Shown: positions 6,206 to 39,716 of the stretch, piece by piece | How positions within the stretch are numbered: the first letter of the stretch is position 1 | Layout of the letters: each line of letters begins with the position of its first letter | Assembly: GCF_022965805.1 (NCBI RefSeq) | Contig: NC_133116.1 | Coordinates: 8,452,601 to 8,516,600 of the forward strand | From: Primulina eburnea | Lineage: Eukaryota > Streptophyta > Magnoliopsida > Lamiales > Gesneriaceae | Length of the DNA: 64,000 nucleotides | Reading direction: 5' to 3' | Translations under genes and position numbers: made by a program | Notes under the pieces: generated by a model | Told to the model about the DNA's origin: nothing | The model's database searches: none | What the model saw: the letters and a program-made list of their open reading frames with translations, nothing else

Positions 6206-6992
6206 TGTAGCGTCCTGAAAATTTGAAGATCTACATGAACCACATGCATACAAATTATTAAATTTCTTTGGTATTTTATTAAATTCTTTTAAAGCATAAA
6301 ATGTATGTTTATTTTATTAAATTGTGTTTAATTATTTTTATACATTTTATGTATTATTATTGCATGATAGGATTTAATTCATGAAATTTTAAAAGTTCAC
6401 GCACTATGATTTTTAAGATGCATTTCACACTCGAACGAGGACAGGAGAATTTTCAAGAAAATTATTTTTATTACAAGATTAATTTTTATTAATTAATATA
6501 AGATGTTTTAAAGGTATTTTTCAAGAATTGGTATTTATTGTGTATTTTTACCCGCATGATTTTAATTTTAACGGTGCGCAAATTTTATCGAATCGGGGGA
6601 CTTTTTGAGGGTTCGGCTAATATTTTCAAAAACTTTCCAACACGAATTATTTTTCGGGAGTGTGTTTGAGCTTAATGGGCCTACTTTTAAGCTTATTGGG
6701 CTTAAAACCCTTGTAAAACTTTTAAAATGCAATTTGTGGCCCATTAACTAATTATTATCTATGTAATTAAGGTCCTAAGCTCCGATTTAACCCTAAACCT
6801 AATCTTTTACTCCCCAACCAGCCGACACCCATTCAGAATTCAATACCCCCTCGGTTTCATCACTCTCAGCTGAAGGCTCCATCGGTTTGCTCTTGTTCTT
6901 GCAAAAGAAATTCATCCGGCGTCTCCTCTTCTCGTTTTTGTTCATCGAATCATCCAGGCATGCTTTGTATCACCTTTGCTGCATCATTCACG

Positions 6993-17057: not shown

Positions 17058-17245
17058 TGTTAGGACCAATGGAATCCAGATATCTCCACACTAGTATGAT
17101 ATTGTCCACTTTGGGTTTTAACCCTCATGGTTTTGCTTTTGGAACCACCCAAAAGGCCTCATACCAATGGAGATATCATTCCATCTTATAAATCCATGAT
17201 CTTTCTCTAGATCTTCCAATGTGGGACTTTGGTTGCATCCCAACA
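17058..17245 (-). repeat. TRIM 3' LTR (left copy)
   Basis: 188 bp, TGTTAGGACC to ATCCCAACA. Two visible substitutions from the right copy, in the first 50 bp. Confidence 0.92.
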
Positions 17246-17491: not shown

Positions 17492-17679
17492 TGTTAGGAC
17501 CAATGGAATCCGGATATCTCCACACTGGTATGATATTGTCCACTTTGGGTTTTAACCCTCATGGTTTTGCTTTTGGAACCACCCAAAAGGCCTCATACCA
17601 ATGGAGATATCATTCCATCTTATAAATCCATGATCTTTCTCTAGATCTTCCAATGTGGGACTTTGGTTGCATCCCAACA
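17492..17679 (-). repeat. TRIM 5' LTR (right copy)
   Basis: 188 bp, adjacent to the initiator-Met primer site in minus orientation, with one spacer base at 17491. Confidence 0.92.
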
Positions 17680-18644
17680 TGACATCATGTGCAACACTTC
17701 CAGAGGGTAATGTTGCTCATTGGCTAACAAAATTTTCTATTTCTGGCTTCCCAATCCCCTCCATTTGTCTGAAGAAAAAACCCGAAGGTAGGATTCCGGT
17801 TTTTCGGTGGGTAAATCAATTTTGGCCAAGGTGGGAGCTTTTGACAAGGTGATAATTGAAAAATTCACGATGATGGCATCCATCTCTTCTGGCATAAACG
17901 TAATCTGGTCAGATTTTTTTTCTCTTTTCTTATTGTGATGGTGAAAGAAGGCCCTCAATTGCATGGTTTTGATGTCATTCTATGTTATCTGCTTGAACAT
18001 CGCAAGATCAATCTGGTGGAAGTCCTGAAGCTCTAGCTGATCAAGTGATGGGCACATCTTTTGTAGATATGTTCAAGAAGAAGAACATGCAAATTGGTGT
18101 TTAGTTGTTGGAAATCAACAAGGGAAAAATATAAGAACAAGAAGTAGCTCAAATGAAACTCAAACCGAACAAGAAACCAACCAGAGATGCAAAGGTAAAG
18201 CTTGTTCTGTCTTCTGGTTTGTTGAGTAGAGTGAAGATAGTGGAACATGAAGAAGTTGCTACAAGATCTGGTTTGCAGACATTAACCTTCTAATGACAAG
18301 GGCAAATACACACTTATCGAGTCAGTTAAGTTGTCTGATGCTCGAGTCGTCATCAACATTGACACGCAGCATTTTGTTGGAATTGTTAAAGATAGAATCA
18401 GTATGTTCGATAAGTGGGTAGACCATAGAATAGTATTCCACTTCTCTGTTATTTGTGAAGAACAAAAGATGAAGGCCGTTGCATTATTTGAAGATAAATT
18501 CTGCATTGGGCTGAAACATATCTGATTTCTGAAGCTTTGGAAAGGCTCGAATTCATCGAGATAGAACTAAAGGAAAGTGTGTTACGGAAGATAATCAGAC
18601 GAAAGAGCGAAAATTTCAACGCTCACAATCCGCAAGCGAGAGAT

Positions 18645-19462
18645 TGAAGAAAAATATTATTTTTTATAATTAATTGATTTAATTTCTTATCTTAAATAAT
18701 TTTTCTAATATTATATTTCCTTGTAGATTTGATTGTAAAAATTATTTTTGAGATTTTGTATTTCTAGATAATGAGATAAGTATGATAGTATTATCATGAT
18801 ATAGTATAATGTTTAAAAGAGGAATTTATTTGTTAATCAAATTTTAATCTTCCTTATCTTATAGATTTGATTGTTGAATTCGAAGAATAAAAGGAGGAGG
18901 GATAGTCAGACGGGAGGACGACAAATCAATCATATACTCACGCTCGTGCTCGTTGAAATCTCAGAAGAAAACATTCTTCAAGAGACGTGAATTTTGAAGA
19001 GTGAAGATACTGAGTGTTGGAGACATCTGCAGACAACATCCATGACGAAGTTGGCTGAAGATCGTTTTTGTTGCTCCAAGTTTTTTTGGCTCACGTTTTG
19101 CTTTCTTATTTTACGTTTTAGTTTTGTTGGTTATTTTATAAAGCATTTTATTTTATCAATATGTTGAGAAAATTGATTTTAGTAGTAATCGCTATTGGTA
19201 TTGTTTTCGTGTGAACGTTGTGGTTTTCATAGTGATTAATTTTTGCACTGAGGCAACGCATAAGTATTTATACTTGTGCAAATTTAACATTGTCCATCTG
19301 TTTAGTTAAAGTAAATTTGTGTTACAATCTTTAATATTCCGCTACATGTTGTCCCAAATGTTGTAACATTTGGTACAACACTTAAATCTGATAAAACACA
19401 TATTTACATCTTATGCTAATATTGTTATTCACACTTGCGTCTGTCAAACAACGTTTCTTACA
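18645..19462 (+). repeat. 5' LTR of the SIRE-like Copia
   Basis: 818 bp, TGAAGAAAAATATT to TTTCTTACA. Contains one copy of the dispersed palindromic motif at 19346. Confidence 0.92.
19346..19382 (+). repeat. Dispersed palindromic motif, copy 1 (5' LTR)
   Basis: ATGTTGTCCC, then AATGTTGTAACATT, then TGGTACAACACT. The two outer parts and the centre are each near self-complementary. Confidence 0.85.
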
Positions 19463-19464
19463 AG

Positions 19465-19477
19465 TGGTATCAGAGCC
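19465..19477 (+). other. Primer-binding site (initiator Met tRNA type)
   Basis: TGGTATCAGAGCC lies 2 bp after the 5' LTR. Confidence 0.92.
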
Positions 19478-20654
19478 TACTCTTGATATACTAAGTGATG
19501 ATTCTTGTTTTTGTTTTGTTTGATAGAATTGTTTAAATGGATACATCACTCGCAAACACAGGACTTCGGCCACCAGTCTTAGATGGAACCAATTACATTC
19601 TATGGAAGGTCAAAATCAGGTTTTATATAAAATCCATAGATGAGAGAGCATGACAACGTGTTATAAGCGGTTGGACTCCACCAAGGAGCTTGGACGAAGA
19701 TGGTGATAGTCTGATAAAACCAGAAAGTGACTGGACTACTAATGAACTGCAGATTTCTAATTACAACTCAAAGGAGTTGAATGCGATTTTTTCCTCAGTT
19801 GATATGAATATGTTCGGTTTAATTACTAATTGTATCTCGGGTAAGGATGCATGGGATATCCTCCAAAGACACTGTGAAAGTTCTGAGAGTGTGCGACGAA
19901 CTAGACTAAGGATGTTTACATCCAAACTAGAGATGATGAGGATGGAAGAATCTGAGAACATACTGGATTATGATTGTCGCCTACGGGAAATGCTAATGAG
20001 GCGTTCAGTCTTGGAGACCCCATCTCCAATAATTACTTAGCAAGGTTCTCCGTTCGTTCCCCGAAAGATTCAACGTAAAAATCTGTGCAATCGATGAGGC
20101 TAAGGACACATCTCAGATGGCTCTAGAAGATCTTATCAGTTCCCTTCGTACCTTCGAAATGAATATGGACATGCAGAAGAAGAATAAGGGAAAGACGATT
20201 GCATTCCAAGTGTCAAATGATCTTCTTCAAATATCCCAAGAGGTTAATGAATCAGACATATGTGAGGATTCCACAGCTTATATCACAAAGAAATTTGGAG
20301 ATTATTTGAAAAGAATCAATGACAAAAAGAAGTCTGAGCAACCATCAAGGTTTCCGAGTCTTCCAGCACCTGAAAGGCCTCAAAATTTCCCTGCCAAACA
20401 ACTATTTCAACCAAAAAATAAAGGCAAAGGACAATTTAATTCAAAGAAGTATGATCTAGTGCAGTGTAGAGAGTGCAGTGGATTTGGTCACTATGCCAAC
20501 GAATGTGCTAACAGACTACGAAAAAATAAATGCTACAATGTTTATCTAAGCGATTAAGAATCTGATGTTGAGGAGAAGTCTACTGATGAAGATAATCATA
20601 TCTCCTTGACTGCATTATTGACAGAAAATCACTGGCTGTAGGTGAATCTGTTAG

Positions 20655-20691
20655 GTGTTGCCCTATGTGTTGCCGCTCCTGGCCGCAACAC
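20655..20691 (+). repeat. Dispersed palindromic motif, copy 2 (in gag)
   Basis: GTGTTGCCCT, then ATGTGTTGCC, then GGCCGCAACAC. Within Gag the codons start at motif base 3, giving GVALCVAAPGRNT. Confidence 0.75.
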
Positions 20692-21296
20692 GTGTGAAAA
20701 ATCAGTTTTCTTAAAATCTACAGCTTCTAGAAATTCTATTGTAGATGATGTATTGGAAGTTGATGATGAAGAGATCACTCTTGAAAGCATACAAAAACTT
20801 TATGAAGAGCTGTTTCAGGATTGGATCAGAAGAAACAAGCTTAACTCAACTCTTATAAAGGAGAACAGTGATCTAAAAGCCTTGGTTTCCAAACTTGAAG
20901 TAATTTTGAGGAAAAAGGATTTGGAACTAGGCAAGACCAATGATGAGCTTCAAAAGGCAACTGAGACACTGTCCAAGTTTAGTTTGAGTACGTCCAAAAT
21001 TGATTCCATACTTTTGATGGAAAGGGGTGACAAGAAAGGCTTAGGCTTCAAAGACATTGTGTTTGAAATTGGTGAATCTTCAAAATCAACTATTTTTGTG
21101 AAAGGAAAAACTGAAACATTCACACCGTCACAACCTACACCTTCAACCAAAATCTCTCCACCAAGAAAAACCTGCTGCACCCATTCCTAAAAAACAAAAA
21201 CGCTGGTATGTATGTCAGTACTGTTTTAAGCCTGGTCATATCAGGCCCTACTGTTATAAACTCAGGGATGACCCCATCAATCAAAAGCCAAGGCGA

Positions 21297-21334
21297 ATGT
21301 TGTCCCGAATGTTTTCCAACGTTTCCCGCAACAC
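21297..21334 (+). repeat. Dispersed palindromic motif, copy 3 (in gag, other frame)
   Basis: ATGTTGTCCCGAATG, then TTTTCCAACG, then CCCGCAACAC. Here the codons start at motif base 1, giving MLSRMFSNVSRNT, so the protein product differs from copy 2. Confidence 0.8.
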
Positions 21335-22729
21335 CCCCAACCGTCGACCAACATTAAGACAAATTTGGGTACCAAAGGTGAAAACACACTGTAATGTTGT
21401 CTATACTTCCTTAAAAACTAACACTGCAGGTCATTGGAACTTTGATAGTGGAAGCTCTTGCCATATGACAGGATCAAGAGAATAGCTCACTGATTATGTT
21501 GATAAAAAAGGAGGGAGAGTAACCTATGGAGGAGGAGTTAAAGGAAAGATTGTGGGAAAGAGAACATTGAATGTTGAAGGACTACCAAAACTACACAATG
21601 TGCTCCATGCTGAAGGATTAAATTCGAATTTGATAAGCATAAGTCAATTGTATGATGATTATTTGCATGTCAAGTTTAATAAATATACCTGTAATATTTT
21701 CGATGAAACAAACATGTGCATTATGATAGGTACAAGGTCTTCAGACAATTGTTACCAAATAGGTGACGAATTTTCATGCAATCATGCTTTTGCGCGTTTT
21801 CACTACCGCAAGTGTACGGTGTCAAGTTTTAGTACTGGTTATAGTACAGATATCGATCCCACGAGGAGTGTGTGTAAAATTGTATATCAATTCTTGTAAT
21901 TAAAATAGTCCAAACTTTATCTAGAAAATTCGTAAGAGAATTGGTTTGTTAAAAACAATTAAACTGCGAATAAACAATAAATCGAATTACCGAATGGAGA
22001 AATATAAGTGATAGAAAATATCTAGAGGAATGATTTCACTAAGTTTCTACGATTATTCTTCCTGGTAGCATTTAAATTCTTGAATTCCTATTATTTAATG
22101 GCCAAGAACACTTACGTATTTTATTCCCCCTTTCCCAAGTGACGAATAAATGTATCAATCAAACTCGATTCAATTATTCCTAATTAGAATCTACGTTTCA
22201 TAGATAAATGCAAACATTGTTCTTACTAAGCCTCGCTAAAGTTATACGCCTTCTGAACGCTATAAACATTTAACGATGTCTTCTAATGATCTATAATCCT
22301 AGTTCCTCTCCCGAGTTGTAGAATTAATCAAACAACAGACAATTTATAGCCAGTAAATTGCAGTACATTAAACACAGAGAACACAAGTAAACATAAAATG
22401 GAATTCAATCCTATAAAATAACCCTGTCAAATCATCGTGTCCACAAAGCTACATCATTCTCTAGAATGGGAGATTAGTTCATCACGAAATCGAAATAAAA
22501 ACGACGCATATTCAAAGATTTAGACATTGACATATGAGAAAATCGAAATGCAAAAGACAGATAACAAATCCAAAGTGTCGTCTCTGTCCCCAGATTCGTC
22601 GCTCTTCGTTTTTGTAATCGATCTTCGCGTGTCGTGCCTTCGTCTCGCCTTCGCTCCGAGTCTTCCCTCTGTATTTTCGTGTGTTTTCTCTCCACGGCGA
22701 CTAACCCCTGTTCTGACCTAGCGGCGCAC

Positions 22730-22737
22730 ATTATATA
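22730..22737 (-). promoter_or_regulatory. TATA box of the Athila-like LTR (left copy)
   Basis: CTATATAATG in minus reading, immediately downstream of the palindrome array in the direction of transcription. Confidence 0.6.
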
Positions 22738-22754
22738 GTGCTTTCTGGAACGTC

Positions 22755-23052
22755 GTGCGCGCGGGTGCGCGTGTTCTGGTGCTCTTGCGCGGCTGCTTCT
22801 GTGCGCTGGCCCATGCGTGTGTGCGCGCGGGTGCGCAAGATGTCGCGCGGCCGCGCGTTCCTCTCGGGTTTCCTGCTGCTTCTGTGCGCGCGGGTGCGCG
22901 ACATCTCGCGCGGCCGCGCACAAGCTTCTGTCGATCCTCTTGCTTTCATGCACGCGCGGTAGCGCGAGATGCTGGGCGGTGGCGCGCGCCTCTTTGGTCA
23001 TGCTCCAATGTTTTTGTGCGCGCAGTAGCGCGAGAAGTCGCGCGGTCGCGCG
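22755..23052 (-). repeat. Array of paired GC-rich palindromes, 66-bp period
   Basis: Five units begin with centres at 22762, 22828, 22891, 22957 and 23023 (spacings 66, 63, 66, 66). In the last four, a second quasi-palindrome is centred exactly 20 bp later (22848, 22911, 22977, 23043). Each is a CGCG-flanked six-base centre such as CGGGTG or CGGCCG. The first unit has only a weak second half. Confidence 0.85.
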
Positions 23053-23245
23053 CACACCACTGTCCGTGGGTGTGCTCTCGGTTGCACGGTCCGTCATTTT
23101 CTTAGTCCACTTGGTTTCGTGTCCACTAGTTTCTCCATTCCTGGAATGACAACAAAAACAAACCAAAAACGCATAATTCTGTTCGAAACAAGCATAATTC
23201 AAAATGGATTCCAATATAAATTAAGTGCAAATCTTGCACTTATCA

Positions 23246-23259
23246 AACCCCCCAAACTT
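23246..23259 (-). other. Polypurine tract of the Athila-like element
   Basis: AACCCCCCAAACTT on the plus strand, AAGTTTGGGGGGTT in element orientation, next to the 3' LTR. Confidence 0.88.
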
Positions 23260-25117
23260 GAACTTTTTCTAGTCCCGAGCAAAATAAAATAAAAACAGGA
23301 AGTCAATTAACAAGCAAAGAAACTCTTAACAGTCATGGATTCGCAAAAAGTGATATTGGCCTCAGACTTATCTATTTTAATGTAATTCATGATTTCCCAA
23401 GAGTCACGTGTGTGTGTGATATGTCAATGTTCGTTTAGCCCATCGAGTGCTCAAATAGAGTCGTAATGCCCATTCGCCTTACAGAATCAAGAAATCTTCA
23501 GTTTAGTTCAACTCACACTTCATCAAAATACAAATTCACATTCATAGATCACAAAAGACTTTATTGGTGATTAATTGGCTCAATGAATATTCAACGAAGT
23601 CATACCAAAGATGAAATCACACAACGAGATGCTTGCAAGCATGTGAGTAAAGTCTATACTTGATGACTATGTTTTTCAGGTATACATAGGCTTGGCTTGA
23701 ACAACTATTCTCCACTAGTATATTGGATAAATGTGACAAGGTTAATAGGTCTTGTAGGCTTGTAACGTTAGGCCACGGCTCATGGCTACAATAAAGGTAT
23801 AGAAATCAAAATTTGAGAGAAATATATGAACTTCATCAACTTCACTCATTTTCATTTTCTTCTCAACCACCACCCAATTTATTGTTTTCTTTTCATTCAT
23901 ATCCTTCATTTCCCAAATGCTTTCTTTCTCACCACTTTTGGTTCATTCTTTTCATTGTTTTTTTTTCAAGGAGCTTTTGAATCATTACAACACCAATGAA
24001 TTTATCTCTCTCAAAATCAGGTAGGAAAATAAGTATATAAGCTTCATTAGGTAGTTGTTGTGGGGTGCAGAATAGATACAAGTGGGGGCTAATTGTATGT
24101 CATTGACACACACCACTTGATTTTTTAGTAGGCCCAAAATGGGACACTAGGGATATTTCATGTTCATTTGGTAGGCTCGAAAGCTGAAAAACGGCTCCAA
24201 AGATCGCCTAAATCATTCCTATGTAACATATTATCCGTATTTTGCCTCGAAAAGTGTTCAAGCAAGTTCTAGACTTCCGTCAATCCATTAGTCAACTCAT
24301 ACAAATCAGTCACATGCAATTTGCGAACAAAATGATATATGAAATAGGTGCACAAAGAAAAAGTAAGCATCTCAATTAACTTGAAGCTCAAAGGGCTACA
24401 ATTGACAATAAGCAAAGAATATAGGCCCAAGGATATTGTGAAAAATTGCCTAGATTATTCCTATGATTGCAAAAGTGTCAATCAATGTCATGCAAGAATT
24501 ACCAAGAATCAGATCTCCCTCATCTATTTAGCATCACAGGCATGCAACTTGTCTGTAAGCAACGATAGTGTCAACAAACACGACAGTGCAAAATATTTGT
24601 GACTCCTAAGTTATCATGAACACATATAAACTTCAGGACCACACTTCAATTTTCATCATCGGCCACACATTTTTCTTATCCATGACTCTACCAATCAAAT
24701 CTAGCATGCAATAAATAAAAAAAATCAAACTAACTACTGATCGATAAAACAAAAAAATAAAAAATTTGCAGAAAGATTCTAAAAATTCTAACAAGCAACG
24801 AGCAACGCAATTTTACCCTCTCCCCCAAACTTAAAGTATGCATTGTCCTCAATGTATAGAAATAAAGAACACGACAACACATACCTCGCGCACGAGTGTC
24901 AAAACTCGGGCGCTCGAGTTGTTGTCCGCAGCATCTGAGTCATCCATTTCCATGGGCTGAGGCGGTGATAGATCTGGTGGTGGGTAAAATGAACAACTAA
25001 TGACGTAAAATATAATAAAATAATAAAAACAAAATGAATGCTAAAGAAAATAAATTGTGGGTTGCCTCCCACACAGCGCTTGGTTTAACGTCATCAGCCC
25101 GACTATACCAATCCTGT
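23260..25117 (-). other. Non-coding 3' interior of the Athila-like element
   Basis: About 1.86 kb between the protease stop and the polypurine tract, where Athila elements would have reverse transcriptase, RNase H, integrase and an env-like region. None is recognisable. The longest plus frame (24348-24602, 84 codons) shows no domain. Confidence 0.75.
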
Positions 25118-27192
25118 TCATGGTGGATCGTATGATATCTTGGATGCCTTTATTTCCACCAGCTGACCTTCAACTTCCATGGTCATCTTTCCTCGTTTCA
25201 CGTCAATAATAGCTCCAACAGCAGCCAATAATGGTCGTCCTAGAATGACATGAACGTTTTGATTGTTCCCAATATCAAGTACCACAAAATCAGCTAGAAG
25301 CCTTATTTTATCAATCTTAAGTTCAACATCTTCCACAACACCTAGCGGTGTCCTGACCAATTTATCTGCCATTTGCAAGCTTAGTCCTGTGGGCTTTATC
25401 CTGCTCAATCCAAGTTTCTCGTAAAGAGAACTTGGCATTATATTCACACTTGCTCCTGAATCACAGATGGATTTTTCAACTAATTTACCCCCTATTTCAC
25501 ATGGTACTACAAATTCTCCGGGGTCTTGTAGCTTCTGAGGGAGATTTCCTTGCTTCTCCTTATCATCTCCTCCATTAAATGCCACCTCTTCCTGCTCTGC
25601 TGACTGAATATTAGAATGTAGGGTCTTGAGATCTTCAAGACTTTTTTTCTTTTTAAATTCAGCTTGTAATTGTAAAAATCTCTGAGGGTAGGGAAGTAAG
25701 GAAATATCAATGCATTGATTTAAATCATACCTCTCAGATTTCTTACCTCGGGTTCTTTTGCTTGGAGTTGGCTTTTCATTCTGAACATGTGTGAGTTCAA
25801 CCTCTTTCTCTTCGCTGCCTACCACACCAATCTTCTCATGCTACATAAAAATAGCATTCACCTCTCTCAGATTTGGATCGGCAGTCTTTTGTACTGCGCC
25901 TGACGGTTGAGACGTGAGTTGCTTCGTTATCTGCCCAACTTGCGATTCCAGGATTTTCAACGAAGCTCCAATATTTGTCATGTGTGTCTCGAGGTTGTCA
26001 AGTCTAGACTCAGTCCTAGCCATCCTCTTGCCAGATTCAGAAACGAATGTCCCAACTAAATCCTCAAATGATGGCTTCCCTTCCCCATTTGATGTATTGA
26101 ACCCCCGGTGGAGGATTCAACACATTCTTATTGTTTGCATATGAAAAGTTCTCATGGTTCCTCAAATCAGGATGATAAGTGTTAGGGGGAGGGTTACCTC
26201 GATATCCTCCATAGCCTCCAAAGTTTTTGTTGTTGATGTATTGGACTTCTTCAAGAAAATGTGGTTCTTCAACAACAAGCGGTGGTCCCTCAGTGTTTGA
26301 TGTACTCACTTTATTAATGGTTGCTATCTGTGTAGTCAACGCTGAGACTTGCGCAGTGAGTGATGTGATAGGATCCACATCATAAACTCCAGCTGTCCTC
26401 TGTAATCCTGACCTTTCAGACGGCCATTGGTAGCTATTAATAGTCATCTGCTCAAGTAAGTCATAGGCTTGAGCAGGAGACTTGGCAAAGATCGTGCCAC
26501 CTGCTGCTGCATCCACAGTTGTACGCGTCTGACCATTCAATCCATTATAGAAAAAGCTCGATTTGTACCCAGTCTTCAAAACCATGATTTGGGCATCTCC
26601 TCAACAACTCCTTATACCTTTCCCAAGCTTCATACAATTGCTCGAAGTCAGTCTGTCTAAAAGTGCTGATCTCAATCTTTAATTGTGCAGACTTCGCAGG
26701 TGGAAAATATTTAGAAAGGAACTTCGTCGCCAGCTCCTGCCATGTCGTGATGCTCCCTAATGGCAGTGATTGGAGCCATCCTCTTGCTTGATCCCTGATA
26801 GAAAAAGGAAACAAGCGCAGTCGAATAATATCATCAGAAACACCATTTATTTTTACCGTGTCCGTAATCTCCAAGAATGTTCTGAGATGTAGATGAGGAT
26901 CTGCAGTAGTGGCTCCCCCAAACTGGTTCTGTTGAACCATGTTTATCAATGCGGGCTTAAGCTCGAAATTGTTGGCGTTTATGGTTCCTCGAGCAATGCC
27001 AGAATAGTGCGTGTTGATCACTGGTCGAAAGTGATCTCTGATTGGTATAGCCTCAGGCGGCATCTGTCTGTCGTTTTCTCTGTAATCAGCCATCGCTTTG
27101 ATTTCTTTCCTTCTCGTTTTTCTTAATCTTCTTGCAGTTCGTTCGATCTCCGGATCAAAAATAAGCGAGCCGGGGTTTTGCAATCTTAGCAT
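25118..27192 (-). pseudogene. gag-pro: Athila-like gag and aspartic protease
   Basis: Reading from 27192 leftward. The first frame (to 26545, 215 codons) is an Athila/Tat-type Gag, with NFELKPALINMVQQNQFGG and then the capsid core RLRLFPFSIRDQARGWLQSL. A frameshift near 26580 leads to 26585-26064, which holds a linker with a GGYGGYRGNPPPN patch. A further break leads to 26023-25841. A last frame (25825-25118, 235 codons) contains the aspartic protease with catalytic DSG at residues 122-124 and an ILGRPLL flap-like segment. The frame ends soon after the protease domain, with no polymerase. Capsid and protease motifs are well kept, so decay is recent. Confidence 0.88.
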
Positions 27193-27311
27193 GCACTGTC
27201 AAGCAGAAAAAATGAAAAGCTCAATCAATTTAAAATAAAATAAAAATAAAAGCTATAAATTAAAATCTGGACTAATTGGTAACAATACTGATATAAATTC
27301 AAATTTGACAC

Positions 27312-27329
27312 TCCTCGGCAACGGTGCCA
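27312..27329 (-). other. Primer-binding site (Asp tRNA type)
   Basis: TGGCACCGTTGCCGAGGA in minus orientation, close to the TGGCGCCGTTGCCGGGGA of Athila-like elements that use Asp tRNA. It lies 6 bp inside the 5' LTR. Confidence 0.85.
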
Positions 27330-27335
27330 AAAACT

Positions 27336-28793
27336 TGTTGTGCGTTTTCACTACCGCAAGTGTACGGTGTCAAGTTTTAGTACTGGTTAGAGTACAGATA
27401 TCGATCCCACGAGGAGTGTGTGTAAAATTGTATATCAATTCTTGTAATTAAAATAGTCCAAAATTTATGTAGAAAATTCGTAAGAGAATTGGTTTGTTAA
27501 AAACAATTAAACTGCGAATAAACAATAAATCGAATTACCGAATGGAGAAATATCAGTGATAGAAAATATCTAGAGGAATGATTTCACTAAGTTTCTACGA
27601 TTATTCTTCCTGGTAGCATTTAAATTCTTGAATTCCTATTATTTAATGGCCAAGAATACTTACGTATTTTATTCCCCCTTTCCCAAGTGACGAATAAATG
27701 TATCAATCAAACTCGATTCAATTATTCCTAATTAGAATCTACGTTTCATAGATAAATGCAAACAATGTTCTTACTAAGCCTCGCTAAAGTTATACACCTT
27801 CCGAACCCTATAAACATTTAACGATGTGTTCTAATGATCTATAATCCTAGTTCCTCTCCCGAGTTGTAGAATTAATCAAACAACAGACAATTTATGGCCA
27901 GTAAATTGCAGTGCAGTAAACACAAAGAACACAAGTAAACATAAAATGGAATTCAATCCTATAAAATAACCCTGTCAAATCATCGTGTCCACAAAGCTAC
28001 ATCATCCTCTAGAATGGGAGATTAGTTCATCACGAAATCGAAATAAAAACGACGCATATTCAAAGATTTAGACATTGACATATGAGAAAATCGAAATGCA
28101 AAAGACAGATAACAAATCCAAAGTGTCGTCTCTGTCCCCAGATTCGTCGCTCTTCGTTTTTGTAATCGATCTTCGCGTGTCGTGCCTTCGTCTCGCCTTC
28201 GCTCCGAGTCTTCCCTCTGTATTTTCGTGTGTTTTCTCTCCACGGCGGCTAACCCCTGTTCTGACCTAGCGGCGCGCATTATATAGTGCTTTCTGGAACG
28301 CCGTGCGCGCGGGTGCGCGTGTTCTGCTGCTGCTGCGCGGCTGCTTCTGTGCGCTGGCCCATGCGTGTGTGCGCGCGGGTGCGCAATATGTCGCGCGGCC
28401 GCGCGTTCCTCTCGGGTTTCCTGCTGCTTCTGTGCGCGCGAGTGCGCGACATCTCGCGCGGCCGCGCGCAAGCTTTTGTCGATCCTCTTGCTTCCATGCA
28501 CGCGCGGTAGCGCGAGATGCTGCGCGGTGGCGCGCGCCTCTCTGGTCATGCTCCAATGTTCTTGTGCACGCGGTAGCGCGAGAAGTCGTGCGGTCGTGCG
28601 CACACCACTGTCTGTGGGTGTGCTCTCGGTTGCACAGTCCGTCGTTTTCTTAGTCCACTTGGTTTCGTGTCCACTAGTTTCTCCATTCCTGGAATGACAA
28701 CAAAAACAAACCAAAAATGCATAATTCTGTTCGAAACAAGCATAATTCAAAATGGATTCCAATATAAATTAAGTGCAAATCTTGCACTTATCA
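27336..28793 (-). repeat. 5' LTR of the Athila-like element (right copy)
   Basis: 1458 bp, the same length as the left LTR. The TATA complement is at 28278-28285 and the palindrome array at 28303-28600. Confidence 0.9.
28303..28600 (-). repeat. Array of paired GC-rich palindromes, right LTR copy
   Basis: Centres at 28310, 28376/28396, 28439/28459, 28505/28525 and 28571/28591, with every pair exactly 20 bp apart. Base changes relative to the left LTR fall inside the motifs, but the spacing is unchanged. Confidence 0.85.
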
Positions 28794-28798
28794 CATGC

Positions 28799-29680
28799 AC
28801 AAATCAGTGAACTCGACCTTTGGCATCAAAAACTTGGTTATATAAATTTCAAAACCCTGAAGAACTTGTTTAAGTACGATGCAGTACGAAGTATGCCTAA
28901 TATTTTATCTGGAATAACATATGTATACGCGGATTATCAAAAGGGTAAGCAGACTCACGTGTCACACCCAGTGTTTCCATCATCTGGGACAACACGCTGT
29001 CTGGAGTTACTACATATGGATCTTATGGGTCCTATGGAAGTTGAAAGCTTTGGAGGTAAGAAGTACTCTTTTGTGTGTGTTGATGATTTCTCACGGATTT
29101 AATGGGTAATTTTCATTAGGGAGAAATCAGACACTTTCAATTTGTTTAAAAAATTGGTCACAAGGATCACAAACTTCCATAATTTGAAGGTGAGAAAGAT
29201 CAGGACTGATCATGGTCAGGAATTTGAAAATTCTTCATTCTCATCACTTTGTGATAGGAAAGGAATTTCACATGACTTCTCTGCACCAAAAACTCCAAGA
29301 ACGAAAGAATAAACCACTTCAAGAAATGGCAAGGGTGATGCTGACTTCAAAGAATATTTCAAAGCGTTTTTGAGCAGAGGCCCTAAATACGGCTTGTCAT
29401 ATTTCAAACAGGGTGTATTTGAAAAGTGGTCCAACCATGACTTCTTATTAAATAATCATGGAAATGAAGCCGAATATTAAATAATTTCATATTTTTGGTT
29501 GTGTTTGTTACACCTTGAATGACAGGGATCAACTTGCAAAGTTTGATTCAAAGAGTGATAAGTGTTTGTTCCTGGGATATGTCACTAGTAGTCGAGCCTA
29601 TCGCATGTTTAATTTACGAACTATGACTATTATGGAATTCATTAATATCGTTTTTGATGATTGTTCATATCTGAAAAAGA
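28799..29680 (+). pseudogene. pol: SIRE-like integrase, broken
   Basis: Continues the GAG-pre-integrase domain cut at 21787: LWHQKLGYINFKTLK follows the insertion at once. The zinc-binding HHCC is lost; the second His of the LGH phrase is Tyr and both Cys of the CxxC are Tyr. The catalytic core is recognisable with the first Asp (HMDLMGP) and IRTDHGQEFEN, but a TAA at 29100 and frameshifts near 29310 interrupt it. The C-terminal domain resumes in the frame opened at 29515 (FDSKSDKCLFLGY). Frames upstream of 28799 belong to the Athila LTR. Confidence 0.85.
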
Positions 29681-29740
29681 AAACAACTGAAGATGATATG
29701 GAAGACTTACTGGAAATTCCAATCATACTAGAAAATGCAG

Positions 29741-29775
29741 GTGTTGCCCCAGATGTTGCAAGACCTAGCACAACT
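29741..29775 (+). repeat. Dispersed palindromic motif, copy 4 (pol linker)
   Basis: GTGTTGCCCC, then AGATGTTGCAAGA, then TAGCACAACT. Codons start at motif base 3 and give GVAPDVARPSTT. Confidence 0.7.
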
Positions 29776-30845
29776 CGTGACACTGAAGTCATTGAATCTG
29801 AGGACGAAACGAACAGCGATGATGACGCATTAGATGATGGACAGAATATTCCAAGTAAAATTCAAAAGGACCATCCATCATCTAAAATAATTGGAAGAAG
29901 ATGTTCAAACTCAAAAGAAAGAAAAAGTGTATTATCGCAAGATGGCTGGACTCATATGCATGAGCTCTACATACTCACAGGTTAGATTTTCACGTTTTAT
30001 ATCCAATTTAGAACCCAAAAAAATTGATGAAGTTTTGAAAGATGAATTTTGGATTAATGCAATGCATGATGATCTTGAGAAATTTGTTCAAAATGATGTT
30101 TGGACTTTCGTTCCACCTCCTGACCACGAGAATATTATTGGTACAAAATGGATTTTCAAAAATAAGACTGATGAGTCGGGAAACATCATTCGAAACAAAG
30201 CAAGGTAGGTTGCTCAAGGGTGCACACAGGTTTAGGGGGTATATTTTGATGAGACTTTTTCTCCTGTTGCCCGTATTAAGTTAGTCAGACTATTGCTAGC
30301 TATTGCATGCTACATGAAAATAAAAATTTTTCAAATGGATGTTAAAAGTGCATTTTTAAATAGAATCTTGTGTGAAGAAGTGTATGTTAGACAACCTAAG
30401 GGTTTTGAGGATCCACATCATTTGGATCATGTCTACAAATTGAAGAAGACGCTTTATGGTTTGAAGCAAGCACCATGTGCATGGTATGCAAGATTAACCA
30501 AAAATCTACTTGAAATTGGCTTCAAACGAGGTGAGGTAGACAAAACTCTTTTCATTCAAAAATCTAAAAGTGAGATCCTTATTTGTCAAATCTATGTTTA
30601 TGATATAATCTTTGGTTCTTCATCCCAAAAGCATGCTGATAATTTGTTGAGTGTATGTCATATACTTTTGAAATGAGCATAGTTGGTGGGTTAACTTTCT
30701 TTTTTGGCTTGCAAATCAAACAAATGCATGATGAAATTTTTTTGTGTCAAAGTAAGTATGCAAAAAATTTGGTGAAAAATTTTGCAAATGAGAACACCAA
30801 ACACATGAGAACCCCGTAGGCTCGAGTGAAAAATTATGCGAAGAT

Positions 30846-30872
30846 GGTGTTGTCGAAAATGTTGACAACACT
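30846..30872 (+). repeat. Dispersed palindromic motif, copy 5 (reverse transcriptase)
   Basis: GTGTTGTCGAAAATG, then TTGACAACACTT. A shorter copy lacking the central inverted half. Confidence 0.7.
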
Positions 30873-31538
30873 TTATACTGCAGCATCATAGGAAGCCTCT
30901 TATATTTGACTGCCAAACGACCTGACATCATGTTTAATGTATGCTTGTGTGCTAGCTATCAAGCCAATCCTAAAATTTCTCATCTAAAAACTGTGAAGCG
31001 TATTCTACGTTACATAGCAGGAACAATTGAATTAGGATTATGATACACTCAAGAAAACAACTTGAATTTAGTAGGATTTTCTGATGCAGATTGGGCTGAT
31101 GATTTAGATGATAGGAAGAGTACATCTGGTGGTTGTTTTTATCTTGGCAATAATTTAATCTGATGGCATAGTAGGAAACAAAATTGTGTCTCACTTTCAA
31201 CTGCTGAATCTGAATATGTGCCAAGGAAGTTGTTGTTCTCAACTTTTATGGATGAACTAAATGATAGAAGACTATGGGCTTAAGAGTAAATCTTTAGTCG
31301 CGTACTGTGATAATCCCAGTGCAATAAATATTTCAAAAAATCAGTACAACACTCTCGAACTAAACAAATTGATATTAGACACCACTTTATTTGAGATTTA
31401 TAGAAAATGGATTGATTCGAATTGAATTTGTTGGTACAAATAACCAACTGGCTGACATGTTCATAAAAGCATTAGATTTTGAGAGATTCTCCAATCTTAG
31501 GAAATCTCTTAGCACGCGTTCTGCTTGATCATTCACAG

Positions 31539-31574
31539 ATGTTGTCCCAAATGTTACAACATCTCGGACAACAC
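31539..31574 (+). repeat. Dispersed palindromic motif, copy 6 (just after pol)
   Basis: ATGTTGTCCC, then AAATGTTACAACAT, then CTCGGACAACAC. This is the clearest nested palindrome: TGTTGTCC pairs with GGACAACA and ATGTT with AACAT. Confidence 0.85.
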
Positions 31575-32047
31575 CTAACATGCATGTGCATTGTTAGGAC
31601 TTAGGCATTATGTATTATATTCATACTGTGATATGTTGTGTTAAACTGTGTTGCATACTTTTCTGATAACACTTACAATTCCTTGTTATAGTTTAAAACT
31701 TCACACATAAACATGTGAACTTAGTCATAAAGGATTTGAAAAATAGTAACTTGACTCTAACCAATGTGACAAGTAAACCAAGAAAAATGGGAAAACAAAA
31801 AGTTGGGTTTGTGATTAGAAGAAAAGATGGAAAAAGGTACCTAAAGGAGCTCAATGAAGGCTGTACTTTTAGTGTGGAAGCTACCTCTTCTGAAATTCAC
31901 GCAGAAATAGAATAAAATGGAAAAAGCTACCTAGAAGAGTCCAATGAAGACTGTTCTTCTAGTGTGAGAGCTACCACTTCTATAATCAGAAAGTTGCTAT
32001 GTCACTGAGTGTGAAGAGAAATTAAAATTGTCTTGCTGGAATTATGT

Positions 32048-32086
32048 GTGTTGTCGGAAGATGTTGCCAACATTTGTAACAACACT
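32048..32086 (+). repeat. Dispersed palindromic motif, copy 7 (between pol and ORF3)
   Basis: GTGTTGTCGG, then AAGATGTTGCCAACATTT, then GTAACAACACT. The central ATGTTG-CCAACAT is almost perfect. Confidence 0.85.
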
Positions 32087-32880
32087 TCATCTGTAAACAT
32101 ATCTCATATTTATTTTCATATTTCTACTTCAGTCACATTCTGTTATTAGGCATAACTAGATCATGCATAAACATAACATCGTGAATATTGGTATGCCACG
32201 AGGACATGAGCATTTCAACAAAGAAAAATTCGATAAAAATCCAGTTTTTAAAGAAAATAAATTTCTTGTGTTCTTTGATGATTAGTGGAGTTAAATTCGA
32301 TGTTGGTTTTCTTTCTGGAATTTACCTTGAACAATCATGGCACGAAATTATCTCAGTGCAAAAAGGTGTTAACGGCTATTGTTGGAACTTTTCAAGTTCA
32401 CAATCTTGATTTTGATGTTAACAAAACTTGTTATTGTGTTTCTAATATATTTACTCAAGTGTGAAGTTGCAAACACAAGAAGTAAGCTGAAACCGAATTC
32501 TGCACAAACTGAATTTCTGACGAGCTTCAGTGTTTTGATGATATCTCCCAGCTGGATGATCCAAATGACAATCCGCCGAGTCGACTGATCAGAAAACTCA
32601 ATTTGGAACCAGTCGTATCTCACGTCAGTTGGGCAACATCAGATGTTATCATGGTTTAACTGATCGCTGAATTACCGAACTGATCACACAAAAAAATCAA
32701 TCAGTTGGGTTTGAGCAGTTGCGATAATTTGGTCATATCTCTCAGCTCGGTTATTGAAATGAAGCGATTCAGTATGCGTTGGAATGATAAAACGATAATC
32801 TACAAATCATCTTCAGAAGTCGAAGCCTGAATCGAAGCTAAAGATGCTGATAAATGACGATGAAGCTACTGGTTCTGCAC

Positions 32881-33110
32881 AAACTGAAATCAGCTAGGCT
32901 GATTTCAGCACATCAGCTGAAACTTAACTGAACCGAACCAGTTGAACTGAACCAGACCAGTTGAAGCCAATTGAACCAGACTAGCTGAACTGAACTAGCT
33001 GTTGATCAACTGAACCAACTGAACTTAACCGAACCAGCAGCTGACCACTGAACCAGCTGCTGACCAGTTGAACTGAACGACCAGTTGAGTTGACAAGAGT
33101 TGACCAGTTG
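32881..33110 (+). repeat. CAGTTG/AACTGAACCAG motif array in the solo LTR
   Basis: About 230 bp in which CAGTTG, CAACTG, CAGCTG and GAACCAG recur every 10-20 bp on both strands. CAGTTG/CAACTG fits the plant MYB core and the E-box CANNTG. It lies upstream of the TATA box at 33227. Confidence 0.75.
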
Positions 33111-33226
33111 GGAAAATGTCCAGGAAGGCGAATATGACCGTTGCAGTTCCAGAAACAGTACAAAAACTTTTCAAATGGTCATATTCTTGTGTCTAACGTA
33201 TATATATATATATCATTGTTGGAGCT

Positions 33227-33234
33227 TATAAATA
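33227..33234 (+). promoter_or_regulatory. Probable TATA box of the solo LTR
   Basis: TATAAATA, about 120 bp after the motif array and just after an AT-rich stretch (33200-33213). It would drive rightward transcription. Confidence 0.55.
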
Positions 33235-34193
33235 CATCTTGAAGATCAAACAACAGCTTTTGAAGAGGATTCAAAGTATGGGAAGTTAGCATGAATATAT
33301 CAGCTAGTTGAGAGCACAAGCCCTTGTGTGAGGATACATTTGAGATGTACACTGTAAATGATAAATTCCTCACACACAATCACTCACACATATACAAGAG
33401 AGTTGAACTTCAAAGTTTAGTTGAGTGAGTCTTCACACAAAGACGTTAAACAATGTGTTTGTAGTCTTTTCATATGAGACATTAAACAATATGCTGATTG
33501 TGAGGTGCTGCCTACAATCTTGAGTGCTAGAAGTTCAGTTTAGGCAGTGGGTAAGTCCTAGCTGAGTTACAAAGAGTTGTATAAATCAAAGTCTTCTAGT
33601 GAATCCTTTCCAAGGGGAAGAAGGGATGATGTATGAGCATTTGAAGTCTTCAAACATCCATAAACAATTACTTATCATTTTCATGGTTTAAAGATGCATT
33701 GTTGAAGCATTTTATGTGTTCTTCAAATACCAAAATATTGCATACAAGTGTTTGATAAAATACTTCAACCAAAATATTTTTACTCATTCAACTTGCATAT
33801 ATTTTAAATGCTTTACAAAATATTTAATCGGTTTCTACGAAGTATTATTTTGAGTATTTTCCGCTTGATTTGAACACCAAACTCGATTTAATTCATTGGT
33901 GTTCAATACTTTAAGAATCTAACTATTGTAGTTCAACGGTGATCCCCCTAACCGATCCCAACAGCTATATTTTTTTACAGTTTCATTTTTAACCGTTAGA
34001 CTAAGCCAGTTACCAAACGTTTGTTACCGTTGTACTGTGCCTTCATGTTTATCTTCATGATTTACAACGCCTAATTCATCATTATCTGTATAATGTCTCT
34101 CGAATTTTCGTGTCTTCCTCACGCAATTTCTCTCTGTGTTTTTCTGCGTTCCTCATTTTTCCCACTAACTTTCTTCACTCGATATACAATTCA

Positions 34194-36011
34194 ATGGTAG
34201 GAAAGAGTTTTGATCCTCACGACATTCGAAGCGAGATTGGACACCGAGAGGATGTTGCCCCTAGTTCAACAATATCCCTAACATCATTTCCTGAAGAGTC
34301 TTCTATGGAAATAGTTCATGTTTCTGATCAGCCCATAACGTTGGAGACTATTGTCCCACGAGAGCCAGGGAATCCCGTAAACATCGATAATCCTCCTATG
34401 TTTAGGTTTCCCAATCCACCACGATCACTGTTAAGAAGATCAAAACGACAGGCTGGGTATAACCCTAATCTTACTCCCGGCAAGCGTTTTCGCTACAAGG
34501 GCCAGTCCTCCACTCGCCCATCACTTATTGATCCGGCAGACACCTTGGGAGATGACTCGGATGAAGCTGATTACGAACTTGTGGCTCGTAAGAAGGTTGA
34601 GCCTGCAAAAGAGAGTAGCACTCTGTTTGATGACACTACAGAGTCTGATGAACCTGCTGCCACGGTTCCCCCACCAGAGACTACTCAGCCTGATGAAGAT
34701 GAGATCTCATTGGCTCAATTTATGGCCACCCTGAAGAAAGACAAACATCATGCTCCTTCCGTATCCGAACACACACAGAGCAATCCTCTTGATAATTCCA
34801 GTGATGAGGAAATGAAAGAATCTTCAAAGAGCCTCTCACATAGCAATGATTCTGGTGCATCCTCTCACCATTGTGTTGATGCTCTTAATGAGGGTGCCAT
34901 CTCTACTACTGACAACAATGAAGATTCCTCTGCATAGGAGGATGTTGATGCCGATGTTGTCCAACTCCAGAAAACACGGACCTGGATGACTATGATCTGA
35001 GTACACCGTTCAGTGAGAAATTCTACGCTGAAGCCGTTGTTGCTCAGTGGTACTTGTATGCAAATCGAGAATTCCCAGAAGAGAAGAATATTGATGGGAT
35101 TGCCTTTGACAGACAGAACTTGAGTGCATTCCTCACGCAAGCTTTCTCAATTGTGTCAGTTGTCACACCCTTCTCCCGAAAACCCGTGCTCGAATTTTAT
35201 GCTAACTTATCTCCAAGCGTGGAAAATGAGTGATCAGCAAAGTTTGGGAAAGTCTTTGTTCGTAACAGACTATATGAGTTTAGTGCTGCTGCAATAAAAT
35301 CCCATTACCAGACCCCAGCGGAAGATTTTGATGGAATTGCCCCAGACATTCATCTAGTCACCTCCACACTCACCGGGGGCATTGTTACTCGCTTCCCAAT
35401 CCATCCACATAAGCTATCAGCTACCAATTTAACATCGTTTTATTTGTGCTAGACAAGCTAGCCATTCGAAATTGGACACCTTCCACGAACACCACCATAG
35501 TCACCAGACACCAAACCATGGTTTTGTACTCCATTGAGACAAATGGAGTGTTTAATTTAGGACAGATGGTCTTCAACATGGTACGACAGTATGCAGCAGG
35601 AGGTCTTAAGGCATCTAAGCTTCCTTTTCACAGTTTAATCTATGGGATGCTGGTATCCCAAGGATTTGTTCGGGATGTTAGCGAGCCACTGTCCACCATT
35701 GGTGAATCGTTTAAAATTGCCCCGGCTCTCTTTAAGGGAAATAGGAAGATCGACTTCCTTGGTCTGCATCTGGTGATACTCCTACAGTATCTGATGTCCC
35801 CCACCCCCCAGTACCTATGCTAATCCACTACCCAACGACTTCATCCTGCTTACTGTCCCAGTAGTGCAAGCCCAACTTGATCATGCTCTAACCAAGATTG
35901 AGCAAGCCAAGGCTGATATTGCCTATTATGAAGATTTGGCTGCAAACTACAGGCTACTTTTGGAAGTGGGAGTCCATTCTGGACAAAAAGGGGGAGATGG
36001 TTATGCTTAAA
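34194..36011 (+). pseudogene. ORF3 of the SIRE-like Copia, plant transposon-protein domain
   Basis: From ATG 34194 (MVGKSFDPHD) to 34937 there are 247 open codons of hydrophilic, acidic, Ser-rich protein with a basic patch (RRSKRQAGYNP). After the stop at 34935, the same or shifted frames encode FSEKFYAEAVVAQWYLYANR, VFVRNRLYEFSAAAI and, at 35446-35823, LAIRNWTPSTNTT and IYGMLVSQGFV. I recognise this as the 'putative plant transposon protein' region found in many plant retroelement third ORFs. A short helical tail ends near 36010. At least three breaks inactivate it. Its role in such elements is unknown; an envelope function has been suggested for SIRE ORF3, but nothing here shows it. Confidence 0.75.
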
Positions 36012-36036
36012 TTGTTATGTTAATGAAATAGTGCAT

Positions 36037-36073
36037 GTGTTGTCTCAAGTGTTGCCAACAAATCTAACAACAC
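36037..36073 (+). repeat. Dispersed palindromic motif, copy 8 (3' untranslated)
   Basis: GTGTTGTCTC, then AAGTGTTGCCAACA, then ATCTAACAACAC. It lies 26 bp after the ORF3 stop. Confidence 0.85.
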
Positions 36074-36179
36074 CCTTGCTAACATTATCTTATTCAGGGG
36101 GAGAAAATTCTCTAACTCAGGGGCAGATGTCGAGTGCTTTCAAGGATTAATGTGTTTGATCTCATTTTGTCCAGAAAGG

Positions 36180-36194
36180 CAAAAAAGGAGAAAT
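36180..36194 (+). other. Polypurine tract of the SIRE-like Copia
   Basis: A-rich purine run (AAAAAAGGAGAAAT) immediately before the LTR start at 36195. Confidence 0.75.
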
Positions 36195-37015
36195 TGAAGG
36201 GAAATATTATTTTCTATAATTAATTGATTTAATTTCTTATCTTAAATAATTTCCCTAATTTTATCTTTCCTTGTAGATTTGATAGTATAAAATATTTATT
36301 GAGATTTTGTCTTTCTAGATAATGAGATAAGTATGATAATATTATCATGATATGGTATAATGTTTAAAAGAGGAATTTATTTACTAATCAAATTTTAATC
36401 TTCCTTATCTTATAGATTTGATTGTTGAATTCGAAGAAAAAAGGGAGGAAGGATAGTCATACGGGAGGACGAAGAATCAATCATATACTCACGCTCGTGC
36501 TCATTGAAATCTCAGAAGAAACATTTTTCAAGAGACGTGAAGTTTTGAAGAGTGAAGATACTGAGTGTTGCCTTGAGTATTGGAGACATCTGTAGACAAC
36601 ATCCGTGACGAAGTTGGCTGAAGATCGTTTTTTGTTGCTCCAAGTTTTTTTGGCTCATGTTTTTGCTTTCTTATTTTACGTTTTAGTTTTGTTGGTTATT
36701 TTATAAAGTATTTTATTTTCTCAATATGTTGATAAAATTGATTTTAGTAGTAATCGCTATTGGTATTGTTTTCGTGTGAACGTTATGGTTTTTATAGTGA
36801 TTAATTTTTGCCCTGAGGCATAAATATTTGTGCAAATTTAACCTTTTCCATCTGTTTATTTAAAGTAATTTGTGTTACAATATTTAATATTCTGCTGCAT
36901 GTTGTCCCAAATGTTGTAATATTTGGTACAATACTTAAATATGATAAAACAAATATTTACATCTTATGCTAATATTGTTATTCACACTTGCGTCTGTCAA
37001 ACAACGTTTCTTACA
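36195..37015 (+). repeat. 3' LTR of the SIRE-like Copia
   Basis: 821 bp, TGAAGGGAAATATT to TTTCTTACA, then GAGAT. Diverged from the 5' LTR by scattered substitutions and small indels. Confidence 0.92.
36899..36935 (+). repeat. Dispersed palindromic motif, copy 9 (3' LTR)
   Basis: The partner of copy 1, with two C-to-T-type changes (TAATATT for TAACATT, CAATAC for CAACAC). Confidence 0.85.
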
Positions 37016-37020
37016 GAGAT

Positions 37021-38750: not shown

Positions 38751-39716
38751 TGTTAGTTTGAAAATATCATAATTTTGGTGATAAAAATAGAATCTAGTTG
38801 TTTCAGGGTTTAGATTATATTTGAGCGTATTCACAGGTTTCTAGCTGGACATCTTGAAGTCAATCCAGACTGCATTCTCACTTAAATATTTCAATCAAGT
38901 TGTTTCGGTTCAAGCTGCACTCTAAACAAACTGCAGAAGCTCAAGCTGCAGACTAATCCTATCCGGTCAAGTCTATCATATGAAGTACCTATCCAGCAAC
39001 TCCATTGAAAAGAATGTTTCTTAAAATTTCAAAGATCAATCAATTTTTCAGAAGTCAAATATATAAATTACGAGAAACATTAAATGTGCATTGAGTGTGG
39101 TGTATTATAAAGAGAAGTTGACAATGTCCTTATGTCAGAAGAAGTTAAATATGATCATTGAAAAAGTTTCTTACTGTCGGAAGAAATTTAAGTATAAATA
39201 GGCAGATTCTAGATAAGAATAAAGACACAAGAACAATACCAAAAGATTGATGCTTTATAATCTATTATCCACAAGATCTTGAGCACTCTTATTCTTTCCA
39301 TGTCAAGTTGTTTATCTTTGCACACGCTTGTTCTACCTATTAGATCATCAAGGATCTATCAGTACTGCTATTCCAACTCTAGTTGTTCAAAGATATCATT
39401 ACAATAGTTGTATTGTATATGTCTAAATCGATAGTTCAATAGATAGTTTTTGTCCGTATTTTGATACTTAGAGTTTCAATGTAGGCATTGATAAGTCCTA
39501 TTTGAAATGGGTTTGTACAAGTGTTGTATAAATCAAAGTTTTCTAATGAATGTCTTCCTAAGTTAAAGTAAGAGTGACGTAGAAGTTGTTATTCTCCGAA
39601 CACCCATAAATTTCTTGTGTCATTTACTTTAATCTTCTTATTCTATCTGCTTTCTCTTTTTCTTGTCTAAGTCGTTGTGTACGTTAAAAGGCTACTTAGA
39701 TTAAATATACATTATC
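38751..39716 (+). repeat. 3' LTR of the outer SIRE-like Copia
   Basis: Starts TGTTAGTTTGAA after a purine tract. Its first 670 bp align with 15732-16384. The last part (39420-39716) has no partner on the left, because that LTR is truncated. The 3' edge is an estimate at the CA near 39716, and I found no target duplication shared with the left side. Confidence 0.65.

Follow-up and report, generated by a model that had tools for sequence, protein, structure and literature searches.

Why should a single retrotransposon carry the same palindrome in its terminal repeats, its genes and its untranslated DNA? The question is raised by a 64,000-nucleotide stretch of the 812-Mb Primulina eburnea genome (hereafter the window; G000:C16:8452601-8516600), in which a SIRE-type Copia retrotransposon holds many copies of one palindromic motif. 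We have found that the motif is built of four short half-sites and that it is kept, mostly at the same positions, in recently moved elements of two SIRE clades. Palindromes dispersed along the element suggest recognition of its own DNA (or RNA) throughout its length. As judged from sequence comparison, the copies may serve a sequence-specific DNA-binding protein as scattered recognition sites rather than form hairpins in the sense RNA, a reading that we hold with about even confidence.

Motif sites in the window element

Two profiles were used to score the motif, the first made from ten window copies and the second from 16 rows drawn from several elements. Thirteen places reached at least 8 bits with at least one profile within 9.8 kb of element DNA, compared with zero in the remaining 54 kb of the window, where the top score was 5.0 bits; the first profile was derived from the same window copies that it scored. 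An initial annotation of the window had placed nine or more sites in one Copia element, which is true and understated, and the nine starts that it gave were correct to within 1 base on reading the sequence (30846 becoming 30847). The motif is also not equally frequent in the non-element DNA of the window; equal frequency was an outcome that the annotation had named as damaging to its claim.

The sites, which are listed without strand, are named here by location. Each long terminal repeat (LTR) holds two. LTRA was placed by LTR alignment and profile at 19014..19040 in the 5' LTR and at 36565..36602 in the 3' LTR, and exactly 12 bp are gone between two half-sites of the former relative to the latter. 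LTRB was placed by sequence and profile at 19346..19382 and 36899..36935. The LTR copies already listed were upheld, and the second LTR copy at 36565 had been overlooked. Within gag, GAG2 (20655..20691) and GAG3 (21297..21335) are coding sites in different reading phases, recognized by sequence, profile and reading phase. IN (28967..28995; profile and relatives) lies just before the integrase core and has a decayed left half in this copy; what had been taken for a right half alone at 28970 is instead a site within integrase that is more complete in relatives. Sequence, profile and relatives identify INC (29741..29776) in the linker between integrase and reverse transcriptase (RT), RH (30847..30884) between RT and RNase H, and PRH (31539..31574) beyond the end of pol. 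PREENV (32048..32084), upstream of the 3' open reading frame (ORF), and LINK (36037..36073), untranslated and upstream of the 3' LTR, were identified by sequence and profile. Near the start of the 3' ORF, the weak copy earlier placed at 34250 does exist, as a half copy of 3.0 bits (34252..34270), and a better copy had gone unlisted: a degenerate one in the 3' ORF at 34942..34978, probably the site that we call ENVX, which scores 10.1 bits with the second profile and 3.4 with the first.

Structure of the site

Of 209 site records, six were removed (partial or unassignable ones, one with a clashing name, and the window's 34942 copy). After pooling of identical sequences, 179 distinct sites remained, from 14 locations. 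Most often the unit is TGTTG-12-TGTTG-(5 to 7)-CAACA-(12 or 13)-CAACA, with four half-sites. No more than two mismatches across the 20 half-site letters were seen in 152 of the 179 sites, and the lowest count in base-shuffled sequences (n = 537) was five. The palindromic symmetry of what had been called a 37-bp nested palindrome is therefore real, and four TGTTG/CAACA half-sites describe the motif better. The arms hold most of the constant letters and the centre is variable. The TGTTG half-site occurs twice per arm and is kept in sequence as well as in pairing, with the outer half-sites better kept than the inner at 10 of the 14 locations.

Occurrence in the SIRE family

A 21-base piece of the motif was matched 1,296 times genome-wide with up to three mismatches (667 forward, 629 reverse), as compared with four forward and zero reverse matches for its reversed pattern. 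Twenty-eight loci, all chosen around a match to a piece of the motif and two of them (L007 and L008) within the window, were fetched and scored together with the window. The first profile gave 276 strand hits at E<=10, each palindrome being counted on both strands, and dinucleotide shuffles of the same DNA gave four, of up to 9.5 bits. The frequency in shuffled DNA, the other comparison on which the initial annotation had staked its claim, is thus nowhere near equal in these motif-picked loci and the window. Chance origin was excluded by the genome-wide counts, the dinucleotide shuffles, the half-site mismatch counts and the low scores outside the element.

In a flank test of 26 loci, which omits L007 and L008, at least 60 bp of SIRE-like sequence was present in the 300-base flanks of 106 of the 109 sites of at least 9 bits, with the site itself masked. 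The loci, which the motif itself had picked, are thereby shown to belong to the SIRE family; the test says nothing on absence elsewhere. Viral contigs searched for encoded relatives and for the motif yielded none.

Constraint on nucleic acid

Open frames (gag, pol, 3' ORF) hold seven of the 11 site types. GAG2, INC, RH and the 3' ORF sites share one reading phase, GAG3 and IN have another, and the LTR, PRH and LINK sites are noncoding. The shared feature is therefore nucleic acid, as had been proposed (DNA or RNA, not protein), and a protein-level repeat as sole cause is ruled out. The difference in phase between the Gag copies, from which that proposal came, is true of the window and is also found in relatives with open frames. 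A motif confined in the first description to one Copia family, and present in LTR, coding and untranslated DNA, is real at the nucleic-acid level.

Conservation between clades and origin of the copies

In a search with RT, 150 of 16,451 candidates were scored, and 20 copies were chosen across the identity range, with long open frames favoured; 2.1 kb of each was analysed. These copies form two clades, with 0.28 substitutions per site on the branch between them. At a threshold of 6 bits, 18 of the 20 copies have all three sites of the 2.1-kb stretch. L029 and L039 have two, and the second profile recovers the third site of L039. One young element of clade 1 and two of clade 2 were then covered along their length, as separate stretches. 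LTR identity within these elements is 99.3, 99.7 and 99.9%. At a threshold of 7 bits the second profile, in which sites of these clades are represented, finds 13 sites in each. Both LTRs carry LTRA and LTRB, and two further sites are clade-specific. Nine of the 11 site types are common to both clades (LTRA, LTRB, GAG2, GAG3, IN, INC, RH, PRH and ENVX); those that differ are PREENV, ENVA and LINK versus ENVY and LINK2. Gag-pol is open through the sites in all three young copies, and the 3' ORF of two of them (L050 and L052) is split over two frames. Given the LTR identities of 99.3-99.9%, the open gag-pol and the shared site positions, the motif is kept in recently moved elements, at positions that mostly predate the clade split. 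INC lies in the fast-changing integrase-RT linker and is 68% identical between clades, as compared with 53% and 44% in its 60-base flanks. In two related elements, sites are spaced more regularly than expected at random (P 0.008 and 0.007).

One recent local duplication, which the annotation had set out as a way in which its claim could fail, does not explain the copies: matches are genome-wide, two clades share nine site types, and the clade-shared sites in young elements rule out such an origin. Another origin that had been offered is template switching, which would spread a tiny sequence, in effect a selfish one, through the element. L012 shows, near 6838, an in-place duplication of half a palindrome site, a trace of slippage within the motif. 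This duplication and the 12-bp loss in the 5' LTR are the slippage that copying of this kind might leave, and PREENV, ENVA and LINK versus ENVY and LINK2 are sites that differ by clade. A given site has an identity of 0.71 between the clades; different sites reach 0.61 when compared within one element and 0.60 when compared between clades. Sites within an element are no more alike than sites across clades, so there is no sign of homogenization or recent copying, and we consider template switching very unlikely as the source of the copies. Concerted homogenization within the element is ruled out by the same identities. An A-T to G-C shift between clades was also considered as a coordinated change of several sites and was rejected; with no general within-element likeness, it is retained only as co-variation between arms.

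Double-stranded DNA or RNA hairpin

The palindromes could act in the genomic RNA as sense-strand hairpins, through which Gag would package the RNA or the 3' ORF product would export it from the nucleus, a role that we regard as possible and doubtful. The arms are complementary and co-vary, A-T and G-C being exchanged in both arms at LTRB, GAG3, INC and PRH (A-T to G-C in PRH and INC, for example), and the length of the centre varies freely. In PRH, 88.2% of cells are paired, shuffles giving 86.2% and slid controls 37-61%, and doubly changed cells number 11 versus 5.1; in INC the values are 79.3% versus 78.0% in shuffles, and 11 versus 6.0. LTRs of clade 1b and clade 2 have a TATA-like box ahead of both LTR sites, so that every site there could be transcribed; in the window LTR, a TATA-like box before LTRA was looked for and none was seen. 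The 3' ORF region has a basic, nuclear-signal-like stretch, recognized by eye, and the available part of PMC10309623 describes a worm LTR element whose accessory protein exports its RNA.

Mismatches within the dyad point the other way. A single-stranded RNA helix should tolerate G·U above A·C, and the counts are equal (G·T versus A·C 128 versus 130 over 11 locations, and 45 versus 47 in an 18-locus set that includes young copies), which speaks for DNA. The half-site is repeated within one arm and its sequence is kept beyond what pairing needs, and the stretches between half-sites are unpaired in LINK and partly in GAG3. With no excess of G·U, constant letters in the arms and the same half-site twice per arm, a protein that reads double-stranded DNA is therefore favoured. 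For the RNA hairpin roles first suggested, then, the complementary arms stand and wobble pairs lend no support; for the protein-binding role suggested beside them, the half-site build and the mismatch symmetry are favourable, and the ligand is a putative one.

Hairpins could also be a source of small RNAs for silencing, and the persistence of the palindromes would then be due to chance or to something else. In maize Sireviruses, the palindrome-rich parts of the LTR have reportedly been argued to be such a source. At the 11 locations folded here, stems of 13 to 23 paired columns were obtained. These stems are imperfect, and this explanation, which we consider quite unlikely, accounts neither for why live elements keep the sites nor for the repeated half-sites within one arm.

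Several observations weigh against protein recognition of double-stranded DNA. When sequences were folded one by one, A·C mismatches exceeded G·T (175 versus 94; these counts are not independent). The inner half-sites are the better kept at four of the 14 locations (RH, IN, PREENV and LINK2). Some locations have one regularly poor half-site; in IN and LINK2, for example, it is the outer one on the left, and in RH that on the right. Spacing at the centre differs by 2 bp among sites, which a rigid DNA-bound dimer would dislike. Pairing in INC barely exceeds that of shuffles (43 of 500 were as high), its covariation score of 0.090 is not above that of one slid control (0.093), pairs with a double change are no more frequent than in shuffles (PRH 2 versus 2.1, INC 3 versus 2.6), and the double changes mostly track a single clade split. 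RH is no better conserved than both of its flanks (0.76 versus 0.77 and 0.79) and PRH exceeds only one (0.74 versus 0.77 and 0.58). All sites could be transcribed, so an RNA role may be possible. The protein itself is putative: that the ligand is a protein, that it would read double-stranded DNA and that its binding would help the element are inferred.

The host element and its surroundings

The 5' LTR of the element (18645..19462, + strand) begins with TG and ends with CA, and the 3' LTR spans 36195..37015 (+ strand); both were delimited by LTR alignment and sequence. A GAGAT target duplication lies at 18640-18644 and 37016-37020. Assignment to SIRE follows four features. The primer binding site TGGTATCAGAGCC (19465..19477, + strand; sequence) contains the Sirevirus primer binding site TATCAGAGC given in the available part of PMC2829016, and TATCAGAGC accordingly follows the 5' LTR. 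RT is of the Copia type (RVT_2, 102.8 bits in the window copy). Multiple AGGGGGAG polypurine tracts precede the 3' LTR (four, three and two copies in the young elements L050, L052 and L054), and there is an extra 3' ORF with a PF20167 match of 82.9, 84.8 and 69.7 bits in the same three elements. In the window copy the PF20167 match is 28.6 bits, under the cut-off of 45, and the 3' ORF is decayed.

The element is interrupted twice. A nested LTR retrotransposon on the minus strand, with gag (PF03732) and aspartic protease, occupies 21795..28796 (ends approximate; domain matches and repeats), and its LTRs (22748-23064 and 28296-28612) hold arrays of GC-rich GCGCGCGGGTGCGCG-like repeats with inverted partners. 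A nested solo LTR (32380..33963, no strand assigned; sequence) has the termini TGTTGG...CCAACA and a GCTAT target duplication, and carries AACTGAACCAG-type short repeats at 32926-33081. Between the end of pol and PREENV, the interval 31824-31986 holds a 73-base repeat whose second copy comes 90 bases after the first (81% identity). Outside the element, a 188-bp repeat of 99% identity occurs at 17058-17245 and 17492-17679 (starts 434 bp apart), and a repeat pair of about 82% identity lies with one member on each side (15752-16328 and 38785-39369); the latter are perhaps the LTRs of an older element that the SIRE element entered. Elsewhere in the genome, L024 (G000:C9:3544738-3558968) is a tandem array whose 1,421-bp unit joins a piece of SIRE LTR to the start of gag, with 11 units among the matches listed, and L026 has a similar repeat with a unit of 1,398 bp.

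Comparison with known systems

The initial annotation knew of no named feature of plant Copia elements like this one; Sirevirus repeated motif (RM) boxes are in fact comparable. As described in the available part of Bousios et al. 2010 (PMC2829016), RM boxes are short dyad palindromes that occur many times per element, in the LTRs and the pre-env region, with a proposed regulatory role. They cluster in the upper half of the LTR, on the near side of the TATA box, and also ahead of the env-like gene; they mark CpG islands and, one element excepted, have a CGG-CCG core. The likeness is that both sets belong to the same retrotransposon lineage, are palindromic, are repeated in the LTRs and before the env-like gene, and have at least eight copies per element (13 in each of the three young elements). 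The present motif differs in its TGTTG...CAACA core with four half-sites and in its position, two copies per LTR after the TATA-like box (clade 1b and clade 2) rather than clusters in the upper LTR. Further, RM boxes are noncoding, whereas seven of 11 site types here are in open frames, and CpG islands are absent here, with LTR GC content of 29-35% and 16-18 CpG versus 16.5-24 expected in four LTRs. On the definition in that part of the source, the motif fails three of the four points tested; it is therefore set apart, and is a palindromic repeat of Sirevirus type, built otherwise and placed through genes. No report of palindromes of this kind in Sirevirus coding DNA was found in the open-licence literature searched, to the extent that its texts were available.

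A second comparison is with the anti-silencing VANC proteins of VANDAL elements, which are Mutator-like DNA transposons. VANC was picked for comparison before its motif was known to the analyst. In the available part of Hosaka et al. 2017 (PMC5735166), VANC6 is associated with the motifs AGTTGTCC and AGTTGTAC, and motifs differ between related VANDAL families. As in the SIRE elements, a short DNA motif is repeated through one transposon family, and AGTTGTCC shares the seven bases GTTGTCC with the TGTTGTCC form of the half-site, an overlap that may be chance. The VANC motifs are noncoding tandem repeats, unlike the coding and dispersed sites here, and the same part of that paper describes no palindrome. 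The proteins differ too: DUF1985 and DUF287 are found in VANC and PF20167 in SIRE 3' ORF products. Neither DUF1985 nor DUF287 was found in five 3' ORF stretches (E<=10, with filters dropping most matches above 0.1); DUF1985 is present elsewhere in the Primulina eburnea genome.

A third comparison is with RNA viruses, whose packaging signals have a conserved loop and a stem that varies. In the SIRE sites, by contrast, the arms are conserved and the centre is variable, and wobble pairs are not favoured (G·U 128 versus A·C 130), so that a stem tolerant of wobble with a conserved loop is not what is seen. The likeness lies in the many copies of a degenerate stem along the genome, coding regions included, as in the dispersed packaging signals of single-stranded RNA viruses (PMC6281560, available part).

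Candidate binders and possible sites in other plants

A DNA-binding protein could be encoded by the element (the 3' ORF product, Gag or integrase) or be a host factor. In the 3' ORF region, the basic stretch lies upstream of PF20167, and the two occur in one protein in P0121. Twelve proteins related to the PF20167 part were found, with Henckelia and Primulina among the sources; SIRE 3' ORFs are very heterogeneous according to the available part of PMC6317226. An AlphaFold model of the PF20167 stretch (mean predicted local distance difference test score, pLDDT, 46) was too poor and was not used.

The sites might instead bind the integrase of the element itself or a host transcription factor with CAACA-type targets, or act as decoys for either. 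RAV1-type factors do read CAACA. For a host factor, four-part symmetry inside coding DNA would hardly be needed. The GTT-AAC gap here is mostly 2 to 4 bp rather than 5, and no such palindrome was seen by eye at the one SIRE insertion examined (the GAGAT duplication). Tos17, a Copia element, targets the palindrome ANGTT-5 bp-AACNT, close to the inner ATGTT..AACAT (PMC6911290, available part). Of the explanations weighed, we consider integrase or CAACA-reading host factors the least likely.

Evidence from other species was obtained solely by back-translation of proteins, with patterns picked after some of the sequences were known. The best 120 of 7,993 homologous proteins were listed, and the integrase-RT linker could be extracted from 17. 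The residue pattern expected of two half-sites 12 bp apart was present in 10 of these 17 linkers (shuffles: mean 0.5, maximum 3); the ten are four from Trifolium and six others, and several are near-identical. MLQH, which is able to encode the inner palindrome, was present in two of 13 integrase linkers. Patterns like V..V.NT..NT were seen by eye at ENVX and ENVY in 3' ORF homologs, Henckelia included. These residues are hints that the same sites may be present in other plants.

By analogy with VANC, we also propose, as an unlikely extension, SIRE self-recognition: a fast-evolving nuclear 3' ORF product (env-like) would bind the ~13 palindromes, those within genes included, and keep the element open or protected. 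Such a system would be a separately evolved counterpart of VANC, maybe across the Sireviruses of flowering plants.

Conclusions

Under recognition of double-stranded DNA, a putative protein would bind as an oligomer to the four TGTTG half-sites of each site, and selection in replicating SIRE elements would keep ~13 sites along the whole element. The most likely use of the sites would be as marks along the DNA of the element, for instance in countering silencing or in organizing its chromatin. Retrotransposon binding sites are usually sought in LTRs. Symmetric sites through gag, pol and the 3' ORF mean that a constraint beyond protein coding shapes these genes, and the palindrome set is a probe for the function of the SIRE 3' ORF and for how plant retrotransposons mark or protect themselves.

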